Virus record (IMG/VR): IMGVR_UViG_3300025759_006801
Location: 1-38,414 of that record
Strand: one strand, 5' to 3'
Length of the DNA stretch: 38,414 nucleotides
DNA from: a virus
The position numbers were made by a program, and so were the translations under genes. Below, piece after piece: positions 735-38,218 of this stretch. Within the stretch, counting starts at the first letter, position 1, and each line of letters begins with the position of its first letter. The notes under the pieces were generated by a model. That model made no database searches and was not told the origin of the DNA. It was given only the letters and a program-made list of their open reading frames with translations.

Positions 735-3700
735 TTAAGGACCAATAAATTGACCCGCAGAATCAGACATACCTATTGTTGGATATTTACTAACTTGACC
801 ATTAGAGCCAACATACATTGGAGGATCAAGAGTTACAGAGGTTAAAGACGAAGACGTTGGAGGTTGATTACCAGGATTTCCAAAATAATAAGGTGGCGAA
901 GGCATGTTTGCGTTTGTTGTATTGTTCCATACTAAATTAAAATCACCAGTAGCACCATTTGCATTTGCTCTAAAACCCATATTAACCATAGCGCAAGCTG
1001 AAAAGTCGTAAGAACCATAAGAACCACCACTAGATCTCATACCTGGTCTTAATCCTGCAGCCACTGCTAAATCAAAATTTGTTTGTGTCATTCCTCCTGA
1101 AGCAGCCGTGAAAGGTTGTAAGCCACCAACTATTATCCATTGATAAGGTCCAGCGGCATCACCTGTTGAACCTGGACCATTTGGCGGTGGTGGATAATAG
1201 TTATTGCTAAAATTACTAACAGCCGCTGGAACAGAATTACCAGTGCTTATTCCAAAGCTATTACCTTGACTGTCGGTAAAATTAGTACTATTGTCACCGT
1301 ATCTAGGATCTGAATTTGGATATAAAGGATATTGAAATGTTGATCGTTTTGTTGCGCCGTTTGTATTTCTTATTGAACAGTAAGCATATATGTACACAGG
1401 TTGATCAGTCCAGTTTTGCATTTGATAATAACCATCTTTTGTTGATGTTCCTTGAATTGTTGTTCCTGATAAAACAGGTTGGAATTCAGAATCTGAATTA
1501 CTGTATTTAGCTATTATAACTTGACCAAAGTATGTTGTAACGCCAACGCTATATGTTATTTTAGCAGCATAAGCACTGTCTACAGTTGTATTATAAGCTT
1601 GTAAACTATCTTTTAAAGACATGTTTATTTCGTAAGAATAGTTGGGTTCATTTAAAGGACCTGGATTTTGACCGTTAGAACCTAATTGACCACTTAGATT
1701 AAAACCAATCCATTCGTCAGCTCCAGATCCACCAGCTTGACCTTCTTGAAAAGTAGGCCAATCTGCTGAAGACTGATAAGTAGATACCCAATCACTTACA
1801 GAAGGTGTCGTTGCAGTTGTTACCTCAACTGTATTACCAGTTGTAGCGTTTGTTTTTGTGATGTTAACAACTTGCCAACCAGACTGAAGACTACTAGATA
1901 AAAACTCTCTACCTGTAGGATCAGAGTCATTATATGGTGCATTAAACTGTCTAGCTGAACCATTTCTTCCTCTAGGTGAATTTCCTGAGGTTACTATAGT
2001 TGTGCTCGTAGTAAGAACAGATCCAGTTCTATCTACTATAGGATTTTGAACAATAGGAACAACATTTTCTAATTGGACTATGAAAGACTGATCTACTTGT
2101 GTTCCGTCGAGTTGAGCTAAAGTTAAAGTAAATTGAAACTTACCTCTAGTTGCTACATCATAATTAGGCTCTTGAGAAGATCCAGCATAAAATCTATCGT
2201 TTGTTTTAACTATATAACTACCTGTTGAACCACCTGGCTCAATAACAAACCTGCTAGCTTGTGGAATAGTCGTGTCTAAATTGCCATTAGCATCGTGAGC
2301 AAAAACGGTGTAACTAACGAGTGTTGTATTTGCTAAGTTTACTCCATTTGCAACTGGAAATATATCACTAGTTATAGCTGTTCCAGAGGCCATTGATTCT
2401 ATAAAAGAAACTGTAAAACTATTTAAACCAGTTATATTGTTACTAGTATTCTGTATAGACAGATTCAAATCAGATATTTTATCAGACGTAGAAGACTCAT
2501 AAAATATTTCTAATGGTGATATATATGGAGCTGTTTCGTAAATAGCTAACCCCATATTTGGTGGATAAGGATAATTACCTGTAAAGTTTATATCGTCAGG
2601 TTGAGTATAAGACTGCTCACCTAATCCAACGGCTTTTTGGGTTGATATTTTAGCTAAAACAGGTTTTGTATCAAAACTATATATAGCGTATTTATTTATA
2701 AATCCTGGACCTGTATTATCGCTTAAACCAGGATATAAATCATTTATACCTCCGACTAAATTAACTTGATCAGCGGCGGATTCTGGATCAACTTGCTTAT
2801 TAAATGTTTCATAAGTAACTGTTGTTGATTCAACACCTGGTATATTTGTAACTCTAGGCCACATAGAAACATCGCTTGTAAACTGATTTTGATTTGGTCC
2901 TACATCTTCTAAATTTCTAGGAATTTTATTAATGTTGTCAGTTATTAAAACAATATTAGCAACTTCGTTTTGCTCTAAAGTTTCTTCGTCTATTGGATAA
3001 CCATTTACAATACCTGGAAGAAAAACATTATAATAGTCTTGTTGCTGTTGTTTTACAGCGGTTTTGTACACAAAAAATCCATTTGGATTAATATCATATG
3101 TAGCGTAAACATTTAAACCTGTCTTAGCAGGTAGTCCAGTTGTTGCGCTGCCTGGTGAATTGTCAAAAACATAATCTAAACTAACTTCCTCTTTTGTAAA
3201 AAACTCTACAGCTCTAACGCCATTAGCGTCACTTATAGGTGTAACACTAGTTATTTCTGTATAATCTATGTATAAGCCATTTAATTTTTTACCAGGCGCA
3301 TAATATTGAGAATAAGTAGTTGGCCAATCTGGAAATAAAGGTCTATTTGTACTTGAAGCAGCCCCAGTACTGTATTTATATCTCCTATCAGATGTGTATA
3401 ATATTTCTACTTTTACAACTTGAGGCGCAGTTATAGCCGTGTTTAGTGTAACTCTTAAATAATTAGAATTATCAGATATTGTATATTCAGTAGATTCTAT
3501 TAACTTAAAACCATTGTTATAGTCAATATATACATTAAACGTGTTGGATGAGTCAGTAGCGTCTGCGTATGTAAAATAACTATCAAATGTAGTACCAGCG
3601 TTTGTGCTTGTGAATTTAAAATATTGAGTTGAAAGAGGTATAAAAGTTGGATATAAAGCACTTGGTGGTTGTGTGGATTCAGTATCTACTTCATAATAAT

Positions 3701-24702: not shown

Positions 24703-24959
24703 ACAACAACGACCACGTCTTGTGACTTTATAACGTGATATATATTTTTTTCAAACTCTATTTTATGACCAGCGTGTCTATCAAAAAATATTTCATCATT
24801 TTCTTTAACACCATCAACTTCATTTCCAACTGATATTACTAGTGCTCTTCTGTATCTTAAATCATTTTTTTGATTTTCAGAAAGAAGTAAACCACCTTTT
24901 GTTTCTGTAGTTCCTTCTTTTTTGACTAATATTATTAAGTTTCTACCTATTGCTTTCAT
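24699..24959 (-). CDS. groES: Phage co-chaperonin GroES
   Basis: This 86-aa protein has the GroES outline: MKAIGRNLIILVKKE (first strand), a mobile-loop region TTETKGGLLLSEN, RALVISVGNEVDG, VKENDEIFFDRHAGHKIEF and a final strand NIYHVIKSQDVVVVV. The mobile loop is shorter than in E. coli (ETK then GG directly, without the extra SA). It should cap the GroEL ring and may be adapted, like T4 gp31, for folding a phage protein such as the capsid subunit. The start lies 17 bases inside the end of groEL, so the two are translationally coupled, in the order groEL-groES, opposite to the bacterial operon. Confidence 0.85.
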   Translation of the reverse strand: MKAIGRNLIILVKKEGTTETKGGLLLSENQKNDLRYRRALVISVGNEVDGVKENDEIFFDRHAGHKIEFEKNIYHVIKSQDVVVVV

Positions 24960-26499
24960 TTATTCTAACGTTATTTATTACACAATTAGTAGAAAGTATA
25001 GTAGTTGCTACAGAAGCCGCATTTTTTAATGCACTTTTAGTAACTAATAGTGGATCTATAATTCCACTTTTAATCATATTAACCATTTTTCCTGTAACCA
25101 CGTCGTAACCTTGACCCTTTTTATAAGGATAATCTAAGTTATCAACACCTGCATTAGAAAGAATAGTTCTATAAGGTGCGGTTATAGCACTTAACAACAG
25201 TCGTTCGCCTAATGAATAAGCTTTAACTTTTTGAGAAGCGTTTAGAAGCGCAATACCACCACCTGGAACAATACCTTCTTTAACAGCGGCTTTTGTAGCA
25301 CAGATAGCGTCTTCCACTCTATCCATTTTTTCTTTAAGTTCTATTTCAGAATTAGCTCCAACTTTTACTACAGATATCCTAGATGAAAGCATTGCTAATC
25401 TTTTTTCTAAACTTATTACTTGATCAGGTATTTTACAAGTTATAAGCTTTTTTTCTATATCTTTGATTATCTCAGCACATTCATGGCTTTGCTCTTTAAA
25501 CTGTAATATAGTATCTGTTTGGCTGGTTATAGACTTAAAACATGTACCTAGATGATCTATTTCTATTAAATCCATATCATCACCTAAATCTTCGTTTATT
25601 AACGTCGCTCCTGTTAGCAAAGAAAGATCATCAAACATTTGTTTTCTATTTACACCTAACACAGGTGCATCTATAACATTAACTTTTATATTTCCTTTTG
25701 TTTTATTCATTGCTAATGCTGATAAAACCTCAGGACTTAAATCTGCTATTATTAAAAGTGATTTATTGTTTTTTATAACATATTCTAAAACACTTTGTAT
25801 CTGTCTTATGTTTTCAACATTATTTTCTACTAATAAAACAAGAGGGTTGTTTAACTCTGCAGTCTTTTTAATTTTATTAGTAACAAAATGAGGACTTGTT
25901 AGACCTTTAAAATATTGAGAACCTTCTATTGTTTCTATTTCTGTTTTACCAGAATCAGATTGTTCCATTATAACTACACCTGTATTTTTTACATTTTCAA
26001 ATGCTTTACCTATTAACTCTCCTAACTCTTTATCATTGTTTGTTGATATAGTAGCTATTTGTTTTATCATTTCATCTTTAACAGGTAAAGATATTTTATT
26101 TAAATAATCAACAACTCTATTAACAGATTTATTTATATCTTCTTTTAGCTCTCTTACACTAAGTTCTGATTTAACTTTATTTGCTTCATAAAGTATTGAG
26201 TGAGCTAAAACAGTAGCTGTGGTAGTGCCATCACCCGCTTCTTTAACAGTTTTTTTTGCGGCTTGTTTTAACAAGTTGCAACCTAAATTTTCTACCGGAT
26301 CTATTAACACTACGCTTTCAGCAACTGTTACACCATCTTTTGTTATTGTTGGATTTCCATATTGATCTTCTAGCAAAACACAGCTACCACCAGCGCCGAG
26401 CGTTGAACTAACCGCGTTTGCTAACTTGTCAATACCATTAAAAACTTTATTCCTAGCATCGTCTCCAAAACTAAGATTTTTAACTATCTTGTCTGACAT
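24943..26499 (-). CDS. groEL: Phage chaperonin GroEL
   Basis: This 518-aa protein is a full-length chaperonin. It has NPTITKDGVTVAESV (nucleotide-site Asp near residue 55), AGDGTTTATVLA (about 90), TISTNNDKELGELIG, RVEDAICATKAAVKEGIVPG (catalytic Asp equivalent to E. coli D398) and GGGIALL, so ATP binding and hydrolysis residues are present. The apical domain is diverged, and the C-terminus ends ATTILSTNCVINNVRINES without the GGM repeat of bacterial GroEL, making it about 30 residues shorter. It probably folds phage structural proteins together with the GroES encoded next to it. It may assemble into one or two rings; that cannot be told here. Confidence 0.95.
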   Translation of the reverse strand: MSDKIVKNLSFGDDARNKVFNGIDKLANAVSSTLGAGGSCVLLEDQYGNPTITKDGVTVAESVVLIDPVENLGCNLLKQAAKKTVKEAGDGTTTATVLAHSILYEANKVKSELSVRELKEDINKSVNRVVDYLNKISLPVKDEMIKQIATISTNNDKELGELIGKAFENVKNTGVVIMEQSDSGKTEIETIEGSQYFKGLTSPHFVTNKIKKTAELNNPLVLLVENNVENIRQIQSVLEYVIKNNKSLLIIADLSPEVLSALAMNKTKGNIKVNVIDAPVLGVNRKQMFDDLSLLTGATLINEDLGDDMDLIEIDHLGTCFKSITSQTDTILQFKEQSHECAEIIKDIEKKLITCKIPDQVISLEKRLAMLSSRISVVKVGANSEIELKEKMDRVEDAICATKAAVKEGIVPGGGIALLNASQKVKAYSLGERLLLSAITAPYRTILSNAGVDNLDYPYKKGQGYDVVTGKMVNMIKSGIIDPLLVTKSALKNAASVATTILSTNCVINNVRINESNR

Positions 26500-34124: not shown

Positions 34125-34162
34125 CACGGAGTTACTCGTGTGCTTAACAGATAATATATTCG
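34125..34162 (+). promoter_or_regulatory. Early promoter copy 1
   Basis: CACGGAGTTA (34125-34134), exactly 15 bases, then GATAATAT (34150-34157) extending to TATATTCG (34155-34162). If TATATTCG is read as a Bacteroidota -7 box (TAnnTTTG), the distance to the TTG-like end of the upstream box is 20 bases, as expected for that class. The 79-aa gene starts 35 bases downstream. Confidence 0.65.
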
Positions 34163-34197
34163 AAGTTTAAAACTAATATTAATTAAATTAAATTCCT

Positions 34198-34437
34198 ATG
34201 TCAAAAGTAAATCAAATTACTACAAAAAGATTTGTAATCAGAAAATCCTTAATTGGTACAAACACAGTGATTACATTCACTAACAAGAACAAAGAAGTAT
34301 GTAAGTACAATCATGACTTAGTCTACAATCAACTAAAAGAAAAGTTCGACGCTATGCCATGCTTCAACAAGTACAACAGTTATACAAACTCTAACAATCT
34401 ACCAAAGTTTGTAAGAGACCTTGAGAAAATAGTATAA
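34198..34437 (+). CDS. Small early protein of unknown function (intact copy of duplicated gene)
   Basis: This 79-aa protein begins MSKVNQITTKRFVIRKSLIG, continues NTVITFTNKNKEVCKYNHDL and ends NNLPKFVRDLEKIV. It is basic, with beta strands first and a helical C-terminus. It is the first gene of the plus-strand block, behind its own promoter, and is closed by a terminator. A second, about 85% identical copy with a frameshift lies at 34940-35178. Small, first-expressed and duplicated genes of this sort are often host-takeover factors; that is inference. Family not recognised. Confidence 0.68.
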   Translation: MSKVNQITTKRFVIRKSLIGTNTVITFTNKNKEVCKYNHDLVYNQLKEKFDAMPCFNKYNSYTNSNNLPKFVRDLEKIV

Positions 34438-34450
34438 CACTAATGACCTA

Positions 34451-34478
34451 AGCAAGTCACTAAACTGCTTTATTTTTT
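34451..34478 (+). terminator. Terminator after the first early gene
   Basis: AGC-a-AGT pairs with ACT-GCT (six pairs with one bulged A, 6-base loop), followed directly by TTTATTTTTT. It ends the transcript of the 79-aa gene just before the next promoter copy. Confidence 0.6.
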
Positions 34479-34869: not shown

Positions 34870-34902
34870 CACGGACTTGCGCGTTAAGTTGTCAGATAAT
34901 AT
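34870..34902 (+). promoter_or_regulatory. Early promoter copy 3
   Basis: CACGGACTTG (34870-34879), exactly 15 bases, GATAATAT (34895-34902), then AACTG. It lies 37 bases before the ATG of the frameshifted gene copy. Confidence 0.7.
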
Positions 34903-34939
34903 AACTGTAAGCAACGAAGCTTATATTAAACTTTATACT

Positions 34940-35178
34940 ATGCAAAAAGCACAAAAACTCACAACAAGCGATTTGTTATTCGCAAGTCATTAATTGGTAA
35001 AAATGTAGTAATTACTTTTACTAACAAAAACAAGGAAAAATGCACTTATAATCATGACCTTGTTTACGAGCAACTCAAAGAGCGATTTGAAGCTATGCCT
35101 TGCTTCGCTAAATATAGCTCTTATACTAATTCTAATAACTTACCTAAATTTGTAAGAGACTTAGATAAAATAGTCTAA
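34940..35178 (+). pseudogene. Frameshifted second copy of the 79-aa early gene
   Basis: From the ATG at 34940 the frame reads MQKAQKLTTSDLLFASH and stops. Shifting by one base after TT gives KRFVIRKSLIGKNVVITFTN, KNKEKCTYNHDLVYEQLKER and so on to NNLPKFVRDLDKIV, stop 35176-35178. About 62 of 72 residues equal the intact copy. One A appears missing where the intact gene has ACA AAA AGA and this copy has ACA AGC GA. Many silent differences between the copies show an old duplication under selection, so the break is recent, an assembly or sequencing error, or a translational frameshift. Promoter and terminator are intact. Confidence 0.7.
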
Positions 35179-35186
35179 TACTTCAT

Positions 35187-35240
35187 ACTGACATTAGCTA
35201 GTTACTTATATACTTAATTAGCTTTTGTCAGTATTTTTTT
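35187..35240 (+). terminator. Rho-independent terminator after the second gene copy
   Basis: ACTGACA (35187-35193) pairs with TGTCAGT (35226-35232); inside, AGCTA pairs with TAGCT. Seven T residues follow after one A (35234-35240). This is the clearest rho-independent terminator of the early region. Confidence 0.8.
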
Positions 35241-37390: not shown

Positions 37391-37414
37391 ATGTGAATAA
37401 CAAAAAAACAAACT

Positions 37415-37609
37415 ATGTATTGTAAATGTAAACCAAATACTAAAATACCCGAAGCTCGAGTAGCTTTAGGTTATAAGACATGTGTTGATTGTTCTACTGC
37501 TGAGCAATATAGTTATGTACCAATAATCAACCATAAAACTGGCAATACTATTCAAATAGTAAGTCAATCACTCTCCGCCGCGGTGCATAGGTCGTGGCGG
37601 CGTAAATAG
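37415..37609 (+). CDS. Small zinc-ribbon-like protein
   Basis: This 64-aa protein reads MYCKCKPNTKIPEARVALGY, KTCVDCSTAEQYSYVPIINH, KTGNTIQIVSQSLSAAVHRS, WRRK. CKC and CVDC (Cys 3, 5, 23 and 26) would bind one zinc ion. I recognise it as a small phage family with the pattern CKC...IPExRxxLGYKTCVDCS...HKTGNTxQ; function unknown. Zinc ribbons of this size often bind nucleic acids or RNA polymerase. It is the last gene before the RNA region. Confidence 0.65.
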   Translation: MYCKCKPNTKIPEARVALGYKTCVDCSTAEQYSYVPIINHKTGNTIQIVSQSLSAAVHRSWRRK

Positions 37610-37612
37610 ATA

Positions 37613-37741
37613 ATCTAGAAGCTTAAGACATAGCTAGATATCTACAGCTAGACGAGTAGCTTAATTAGGTGTGTATGTGGCGACGACTATCGACGGATAT
37701 ATGTGATCATACGGAAGTGTATTACACACACATAAGTGAAT
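37613..37741 (+). other. Non-coding stretch with hairpins before the tRNA-like RNAs
   Basis: No gene is convincing here. TAGCT...AGCTA (about 37631-37650) encloses the palindromic AGATATCT, and GTGTGTA (37669-37675) pairs perfectly with TACACAC (37723-37729). These may be part of a longer structured RNA that includes the tRNA-like elements that follow. Both pairings are short relative to the distances spanned. Confidence 0.4.
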
Positions 37742-37839
37742 AGCTAGCGGCAACTAGGTATGGATGCAACAGGAGTTATTAAATTAACCAGAGTTCATTA
37801 CTACTGACGAGTATGAGGGTTCGATTCCCTCGCTAGTTA
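37742..37839 (+). ncRNA. tRNA-like structure 1
   Basis: A canonical T arm GAGGG-TTCGATT-CCCTC (37815-37831) is followed by a 7-base acceptor strand GCTAGTT and A. The 5' strand may be AGCTAGC at 37742-37748 (7 pairs, one G-U; 98 nt in all) or AACTAGG at 37752-37758 (6 of 7; 88 nt). In the second version an 11-base linker TATGGATGCAA replaces the D arm. CAGGAGTTAT and ATTACTACTG then form an 8-of-10 stem in the anticodon-arm position. The TGGATGCAACAGG stretch is close to the tmRNA 5' consensus I remember (TGGATTCGACAGG). No standard anticodon loop is found and CCA is not encoded. The T arm is certain; identity is open. Confidence 0.5.
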
Positions 37840-37842
37840 CAA

Positions 37843-37924
37843 AGCAGCAGGCCGGTATGCTGCTCCCTTACAGGAAACATGTGCTATAAAGCACCAAGCC
37901 TTTTAGGTTGAAAACAAGTAAGGG
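37843..37924 (+). ncRNA. Two adjoining stems between the tRNA-like RNAs
   Basis: AGCAGC (37843-37848) pairs with GCTGCT (37859-37864). Directly next, CCCTTAC (37865-37871) pairs with GTAAGGG (37918-37924), a 7-bp stem that encloses GTGC-GCAC and CAA-CC/GG-TTG hairpins. Stems abut with no or few free bases, as in one large folded RNA or a precursor cut into several small RNAs. Confidence 0.45.
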
Positions 37925-37929
37925 AATAT

Positions 37930-38036
37930 GGGCGTGAAATGGTTAGACTACAAAATAGGTGGGCGAATGCCGTAAAGATACCGCGAGGAGCGGTACCTAA
38001 ATTGTAGTAACGCAGGTTCGATTCCTGCCACGTCCA
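37930..38036 (+). ncRNA. tRNA-like structure 2, resembling the tRNA-like domain of tmRNA
   Basis: GGGCGTG (37930-37936) pairs over 7 bp with CACGTCC (38029-38035), followed by A. The third pair is G-U, which with A73 equals the alanine identity set shared by tRNA-Ala and tmRNA. The T arm GCAGG-TTCGATT-CCTGC (38012-38028) is canonical. An 11-base linker AAATGGTTAGA stands where the D arm should be. CTACAAAATAGG and CCTAAATTGTAG (37948-37959, 37996-38007) make a 12-position stem with a 2x2 mismatch; inside are GGC/GCC and TACCGC/GCGGTA hairpins. The total of 107 nt is too long for a tRNA and too short for a complete tmRNA. CCA is not encoded. Confidence 0.55.
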
Positions 38037-38056
38037 CTAATTTTAAATAAACAACT

Positions 38057-38218
38057 ATGAAATACCTTTATGAACAACTAGACGAATTGTTAAACACTAT
38101 TAAGTATGCAGAAGCATCGGGAAATGAAGACGCAGATTACTTAAAAAACGATTACTTTATAGACGTTTTAGAAGCATGTAGAGAAATTGTAGAATACACA
38201 TCAGAAGAAAAAGAATAA
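38057..38218 (+). CDS. Very small acidic early protein
   Basis: This 53-codon frame reads MKYLYEQLDELLNTIKYAEA, SGNEDADYLKNDYFIDVLEA, CREIVEYTSEEKE. It is acidic and helical with an evenly spaced Leu/Ile/Tyr face. It starts about 20 bases after the second tRNA-like RNA, in an ACTATG context equal to most starts of this block, and ends three bases before the next start. Function unknown. Confidence 0.55.
   Translation: MKYLYEQLDELLNTIKYAEASGNEDADYLKNDYFIDVLEACREIVEYTSEEKE

Follow-up and report, generated by a model that had tools for sequence, protein, structure and literature searches.

The rescue of stalled ribosomes by tmRNA and SmpB is near-universal in bacteria. In mycobacteriophage DS6A, the ssrA gene has been described as 'TLD only' (TLD, tRNA-like domain), and such a molecule reportedly acts as a strong inhibitor of tmRNA whether or not it can be charged (PMC4131195; PMC11915505); the inhibition, recorded for E. 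coli tmRNA, is perhaps due to titration of SmpB (PMC4131195 and PMC11915505, both citing Mao et al. 2009). Mitochondrial tmRNAs without an mRNA-like region (jakobids, oomycetes; RF02544) have likewise kept the TLD and lost the message, and the CDS-less plastid tmRNAs of Mallomonadaceae, of about 65 bp, are TLD-like genes without a tag frame (PMC11915505). Phage-encoded tmRNAs with a tag frame are also known, e.g., the two-piece tmRNA of Melnitz (PMC9004378). Among the 97,179 sequences of the 2025 tmRNA database, 9 are listed as 'standard, no CDS' (PMC11915505). No description of a broad viral TLD-only class or of exchangeable arms was found in the literature searched, which did not cover most subscription papers or any bioRxiv preprint.

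The window, i.e. the whole 38,414-nt stretch of viral DNA analysed here (IMG/VR virus record IMGVR_UViG_3300025759_006801), carries an RNA of this kind (Table 1). The initial annotation had proposed a 107-nt RNA with a 7-bp acceptor containing G3-U70 and A73, a T arm, no D stem and a long interrupted arm; its coordinates, sequence and all of these parts held on direct reading. The G3·U70 and A73 acceptor, the T arm and the P2-like helix of tmRNA are all present, and the interrupted long arm stands in the place of an anticodon arm. The D stem is absent, and the conserved GG-UU-GAC linker of tmRNA is present but one base shorter than the consensus, the sequence AAAUGGUUAG being tmRNA GGUUUCGAC less one base; this linker is almost invariant within the window's subfamily. 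CCA is not encoded after A73, where CTA comes next. The minimum free energy was -42.1 kcal/mol, compared with -28.2 +/- 3.6 in dinucleotide shuffles (z -3.8), none of 200 being equally stable.

In comparison with bacterial tmRNA (RF00023), the window RNA shares the acceptor identity, the loss of the D stem, the linker, the T arm and the P2-like helix, but it is without pseudoknots, resume codon and tag frame, and is 107 nt long against a model length of 374. It has G3·U70, A73 and the T arm in common with tRNA-Ala but neither a D stem nor an anticodon arm. The likeness to DS6A (Lau & Williams 2014, PMC4131195) lies in a phage genome that encodes an uninterrupted TLD with no message; the differences are the long exchangeable arms and the missing encoded CCA, although no direct sequence comparison was made, and DS6A is one mycobacteriophage whereas many viral contigs, including those of probable flavobacterial phages, are involved here. 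The mitochondrial RNAs differ in being organellar and mitochondrion-encoded, with a nuclear SmpB and a usually permuted gene, the Mallomonadaceae RNAs in being plastid RNAs that are shorter and have no reported exchangeable arm, and phage tmRNAs of the Melnitz kind in encoding a tag. One feature that defines tmRNA, the tag frame, was looked for and is lacking, so the window RNA is a message-less tmRNA (TLD RNA) and not a tmRNA in the full sense. The kind is already known from DS6A.

Table 1. Positions of the TLD-only RNA, its parts and neighbouring structured RNAs in the window, and of TLD-only RNAs in phage isolates and bacterial-genome contigs
Feature	Position	Strand	Remarks
TLD-only tmRNA-like RNA gene	37930..38036	+	107 nt, last base A73; Rfam tmRNA, model R1, folding z
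Acceptor stem, 5' strand GGGCGUG	37930..37936	+	7/7 paired with 38029-38035, including G3·U70
D-loop-like linker AAAUGGUUAG	37937..37946	+	aligns with both the Rfam tmRNA and the R1 model
P2-like arm, outer helix 5' strand ACUACAA	37947..37953	+	paired with 38002-38008
Arm module M1 (UAGGUGGGCGAAUGCCGUAAAGAUACCGCGAGGAGCGGUACCUA), exchangeable cassette	37956..37999	+	also found in scaffold S1 and free-standing
P2-like arm, outer helix 3' strand UUGUAGU	38002..38008	+	partner of ACUACAA
T arm GCAGG-UUCGAUU-CCUGC	38012..38028	+	direct reading, Rfam tmRNA and R1 alignments
Acceptor 3' strand CACGUCC (38029-38035) and discriminator A73 (38036)	38029..38036	+	
Structured RNA S1 (GCUAGACGAGUAGCUUAAUUAGG...ACAUAAGUGAAUAGCUAGC)	37647..37748	+	separate RNA; conserved ends, variable middle swapped in related phages
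Structured RNA S2	37752..37839	+	own T arm 37815-37831, variable arm
Hairpin module M5	37865..37924	+	ends 5 nt before TLD; also in L024
TLD-only RNA, LuckySocke (L211)	3001-3078		isolate
TLD-only RNA, pSt2308 (L254)	1501-1578		isolate
TLD-only RNA, L256	450-524	minus	bacterial-genome contig
TLD-only RNA, L257	1501-1575	plus	bacterial-genome contig

The Rfam tmRNA model (RF00023) matched positions 37930-38039 end to end at an E-value threshold (E 2.7e-13, 37.7 bits), with 40 arm bases replacing 304 message columns of the model. Since 37.7 bits falls under the gathering score of 47 bits, default Rfam annotation misses the RNA, and the scan at curated cut-offs did not report it. ARAGORN called 0 genes in the window. 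The check with Infernal/Rfam and ARAGORN that the initial annotation had proposed therefore gave a sub-threshold tmRNA match and nothing, respectively, and no better match to a tRNA or to another RNA family was found. A covariance model (R1) was then built from a 23-sequence alignment of the RNAs of other phages, the window's subfamily being excluded. R1 matched 37930-38036 at 46.9 bits (E 2.2e-9) and scored 38-48 bits for other members of the subfamily. This match tests independently whether the RNA belongs to the TLD-only class, with the caveat that all of these RNAs were first gathered by related patterns. An ordinary tRNA, with or without an intron, was rejected given the lack of an ARAGORN call, of a tRNA-family match and of D and anticodon arms, the best Rfam family being tmRNA and not tRNA. 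A piece of a permuted two-piece tmRNA was also rejected, the acceptor strands lying in normal order inside one 107-nt unit; the permuted tmRNA model gave only 16.4 bits.

A frame starting with Ala-Asn (GCG AAT GCC...TAG, 37963-38007; translation ANAVKIPRGAVPKL), which had been regarded as possibly due to chance, does exist, but it starts inside M1, consists mostly of M1 sequence and is unconserved among TLD-only RNAs, i.e. it is a by-product of one module, and a tag-coding mini-tmRNA was rejected. No conserved tag-like frame was found among 87 distinct TLDs, and only one of them (L092) has a frame with a tag-like end. A phage-encoded SmpB partner was rejected as well: no smpB was detected in 30 phage records with positive controls, the records being possibly fragments in part and several being complete phage genomes. 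Since no smpB was found, the RNA, if TLD-like in action, must rely on the SmpB of the host.

The exact 19-mer at the 5' end of the window RNA, GGGCGTGAAATGGTTAGAC, was present in 14 other viral-contig stretches from 13 contigs, one of which gave two stretches (L006 and L009). In these relatives, both ends and the architecture are as in the window RNA, and the arm differs in sequence and length and is mostly self-complementary; RNA length is 75-107 nt in this set and 123 nt in L207. The recurrence of the 19-mer with common ends and variable arms indicates that the window RNA is not due to chance. Over 15 distinct arms, 5.53 of the 7 positions of the outer arm helix were paired, compared with 3.88 +/- 0.31 when arms were re-dealt; L014 and the L201-type arms lie outside the fixed register of this test. 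In L201, L203 and L205, which were recovered through the arm module and not through the ends, the acceptor is GGGAGUG/CACUUCC, so that pair 4-69 has changed from C-G to A-U with G3·U70 kept. The gene is retained at the same locus in related phages, and in L204 and L210 a common-type TLD replaces the window's subfamily at this locus, suggesting that both types are equivalent in function.

Outside this subfamily, a class pattern for a TLD lacking a message (3'-terminal UCCA, a T loop, the GAC linker and an arm of 12-42) matched at least 120 viral-contig stretches. Pattern scan and earlier finds together gave at least 119 viral loci with a TLD-only RNA carrying G3·U70. Several records contain two or three R1 matches, most TLD-only RNAs outside the window's group have a short plain arm, and such RNAs are mostly unannotated in viral sequences. 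In the 23-sequence alignment, 96.5% of cells were paired, both-side changes were observed in 153 cells compared with 49.5 after shuffling, and the covariation score was 0.807 compared with 0.10-0.14 when the partner strand was slid. Covariation in homologues, which had been named as a check of the proposal, is thus present: the acceptor, the arm and the T stem all show compensatory changes.

Pairs G1-C72, G2-C71, G3·U70 and G7-C66 were found in all 87 strictly paired distinct TLD sequences, while pairs 4-69, 5-68 and 6-67 vary in a compensatory manner with three to four Watson-Crick types each. Because G3·U70 stays constant while these three pairs vary, alanine charging looks selected, and the alanine identity is probably under selection, although this is inferred from sequence alone and no charging data are available. 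The class pattern itself fixed U70, C71, C72 and A73, so that most of the 87 sequences test only whether position 3 is G and not A. U70 was also kept in finds not constrained in this way, i.e. the 19-mer relatives, L201/L203/L205, and L204/L210 recovered via M1, and later covariance-model finds are likewise free of the U70 constraint. As separate observations, two different TLD-only RNAs, both encoding CCA, lie on the minus strand of the 17.9-kb viral contig L026 (1562-1638 and 5108-5183), and a tRNA-Gly-like gene having a CUUCCAA loop and only a very short D region was seen in L022 (2244-2290) and L023 (12039-12085); these tRNA-Gly-like genes fit the TLD pattern but carry G3-C70.

TLD-only RNAs were also observed in isolates. 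The RNAs of Streptomyces phages LuckySocke and pSt2308 scored 71.4 and 69.8 bits with R1 and 57-61 bits with the Rfam tmRNA model, above its cut-off, and are unannotated, lying between tRNA genes. A similar BLAST match in GiJojo lies beneath a gene annotated as hypothetical, and the 89-90-nt candidates of Microbacterium phages Quenya, Gack and Armstrong (31-38 bits) are weaker and less certain. Five matches found by T-arm similarity (GMA2, CcrPW, QDWS595, S-CRM01 and Tunturi_4) were rejected as TLD-only RNAs, being complete or permuted tmRNAs instead. Gordonia phage GMA2 (L213) carries an unannotated full tmRNA (2133-2544, 94.6 bits) and a Pistol ribozyme (2854-2910) among tRNAs, together with a sub-threshold YrlA match at 2569-2678 (43 bits against a cut-off of 69). 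Unannotated permuted tmRNAs are present in Caulobacter phage CcrPW (L217), Alcaligenes phage QDWS595 (L220) and Synechococcus phage S-CRM01 (L214). In Tunturiibacter phage Tunturi_4 (L218), an annotated RF-1 domain release factor (1618-1965) is followed by an unannotated permuted tmRNA (1970-2379), possibly two adjoining ribosome-rescue functions.

Across 200 genomes from a single bacterial family, to which Arenibacter G027 (the genome of L083) belongs, the top R1 match was 36.2 bits, and the 13 matches comprised 11 tRNA-Ala, one tRNA-Arg and the 3' end of one real tmRNA. In 395 genomes of the same phylum, three R1 matches (G560 with two, G500 with one) exceeded 42 bits; two of these three places were fetched (L256 and L257) and hold TLD-only RNAs with GGGCAUG/CAUGUCC and G3·U70, both missed by ARAGORN, and a further eight loci, with 39-42 bits, lie within true tmRNA genes, matches below that range being left out. 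These matches indicate that, in these samples, neither tRNAs nor true tmRNAs attain R1 scores at the level of the window RNA, and that TLD-only RNAs are uncommon among the bacterial genomes searched. A search of plasmids with one common-type TLD gave no match.

No close isolate relative was found for window positions 37400-38200. By terminase, the nearest isolates are Flavobacterium elemo phages and Cellulophaga phages, the best isolate showing about 45% identity and an environmental genome 63%. Since the terminase relatives are phages of these genera, the host is likely a member of the Bacteroidota, probably a flavobacterium. No R1 match was found in elemoA_13-1A, and ctfjg026 gave a doubtful one (18.7 bits).

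The locus next to the TLD contains further structured RNAs, between the ORF at 37415-37609 and the TLD, and positions 37613-37929 form a modular locus (S1, S2, hairpins and M5; modules M1-M7) in which related phages keep the scaffold ends and swap the middles. S2 has a short acceptor-like AACUAG/CUAGUU helix and, before its T arm, a UACC-GACG-GGUA hairpin (UACU...AGUA in the window). M1, the arm of the window RNA, occurs within S1 in L005, L204 and L206-L210 and free-standing in L011, and M2, M3 and M7 lie inside the TLD arm in one phage and outside the TLD in another, so that four modules are shared between TLD arms and other contexts, with the arm helices adjusted to fit. The sequence motifs of M1 are kept across scaffolds, with some compensatory change in its terminal hairpin, albeit in few and related sequences. 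No module had an Rfam match in the loci scanned. The arm is therefore a hypervariable, exchangeable cassette; it lies where P2 leaves the TLD in tmRNA, a position at which variation may for that reason be tolerated, and this would account for modules being inserted there. A bolder reading, which we consider unlikely, is that a constant, alanine-chargeable TLD chassis takes cassettes that are also used in at least one other scaffold at the locus. The exchangeable cassette, the modular locus and the wide occurrence of TLD-only RNAs in viral contigs go beyond the initial annotation.

The function of the RNA is inferred, without expression or binding data. On balance we favour, with moderate confidence, a tagless tmRNA mimic, charged with alanine, that diverts trans-translation with the help of host SmpB and EF-Tu. 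In this reading, a closed hairpin arm replaces P2, the pseudoknots and the tag frame of tmRNA; processing, CCA addition and alanylation through G3·U70 and A73 would be carried out by host enzymes; host SmpB and EF-Tu would bind the charged RNA, which would compete against host tmRNA for SmpB and stalled ribosomes and could accept a nascent chain without providing a tag frame; and tagging and degradation of unfinished proteins as well as recycling of the rescue machinery would be diverted during infection. The TLD structure, missing message, conserved alanine identity, lack of a detected smpB and wide viral distribution are shown by sequence, whereas it is only inferred that the RNA is transcribed, charged and bound by SmpB and the ribosome, that it inhibits trans-translation and that the phage benefits. 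The tagless mimic had already been put forward in the initial annotation, and it is supported by the independent covariance-model match, the compensatory changes, the kept G3·U70 and the absence of a message or conserved tag frame. Conserved alanine identity without a message suggests that charging matters, and hence that the RNA does more than sequester SmpB, entering the ribosome together with EF-Tu and SmpB.

The main rival is productive tagless rescue, in which charged TLD·SmpB·EF-Tu would enter stalled ribosomes, take the chain and help to free the ribosomes untagged, the phage gaining ribosomes and untagged proteins, as suggested likewise for messageless mitochondrial tmRNAs. This remains possible: the strict alanine identity is not needed by a pure SmpB sponge, and mitochondrial tmRNAs without tag frame are conserved together with SmpB (PMC11915505). 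However, no termination route is known without a message and stop codon, and the single tested phage TLD-only RNA reportedly inhibits tmRNA (PMC4131195, PMC11915505). Diversion is favoured over productive rescue because this sole reported experiment shows inhibition; the evidence obtained here does not separate the two. Against diversion stand the linker, one base short of the tmRNA consensus (GGUUAGAC for GGUUUCGAC), and the hypervariable, module-bearing arm, which has no role in that model beyond closing the helix; moreover, titration of SmpB alone needs no charging, so that the strict G3·U70 may favour productive rescue.

Another rival is a delivery handle, i.e. a constant TLD chassis bringing working arm modules to the ribosome or to SmpB/EF-Tu; in its favour, M1, M2, M3 and M7 are found in TLD arms and elsewhere with helices fitted, and the motifs of M1 are kept across scaffolds. 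This is nevertheless improbable, as the arm is short and plain in most TLD-only RNAs elsewhere, no module target is known, and the loci scanned gave no Rfam match for the modules. A simple SmpB sponge, for which charging would be irrelevant, agrees with the inhibition reported to be independent of chargeability (PMC4131195) but hardly with a G3·U70 that no distinct sequence has lost although the pairs next to it vary, and is regarded as very unlikely. Also very unlikely is a relic or non-RNA role, i.e. a leftover ssrA integration site, recombination target or pseudogene; prophages do integrate at ssrA (PMC9004378), but neither acceptor strand is truncated, covariation is seen in the acceptor, the arm and the T stem, and the gene recurs at this locus in related phages.

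A broad class of phage RNAs having the tRNA-like half of tmRNA, an alanine identity apparently under selection and no message would imply that interference with ribosome rescue, or its re-use, is common among phages. Default annotation overlooks the class (ARAGORN does so, as does the Rfam cut-off for more diverged members), a TLD model allows it to be surveyed, and the Streptomyces isolates LuckySocke and pSt2308 open it to experiment. Modular phage RNAs are a separate, new question that arises from the exchangeable arms; were the bolder chassis reading true, a single chassis would deliver a range of cassettes to SmpB or stalled ribosomes as a modular system. Elsewhere in the window, positions 34125-34474 and 34870-35219 are about 70% alike and likely represent a duplicated gene pair, and the minus strand at 24943-26499 encodes a GroEL-like chaperonin (Pfam Cpn60_TCP1, E 8e-56; PHROG groEL).
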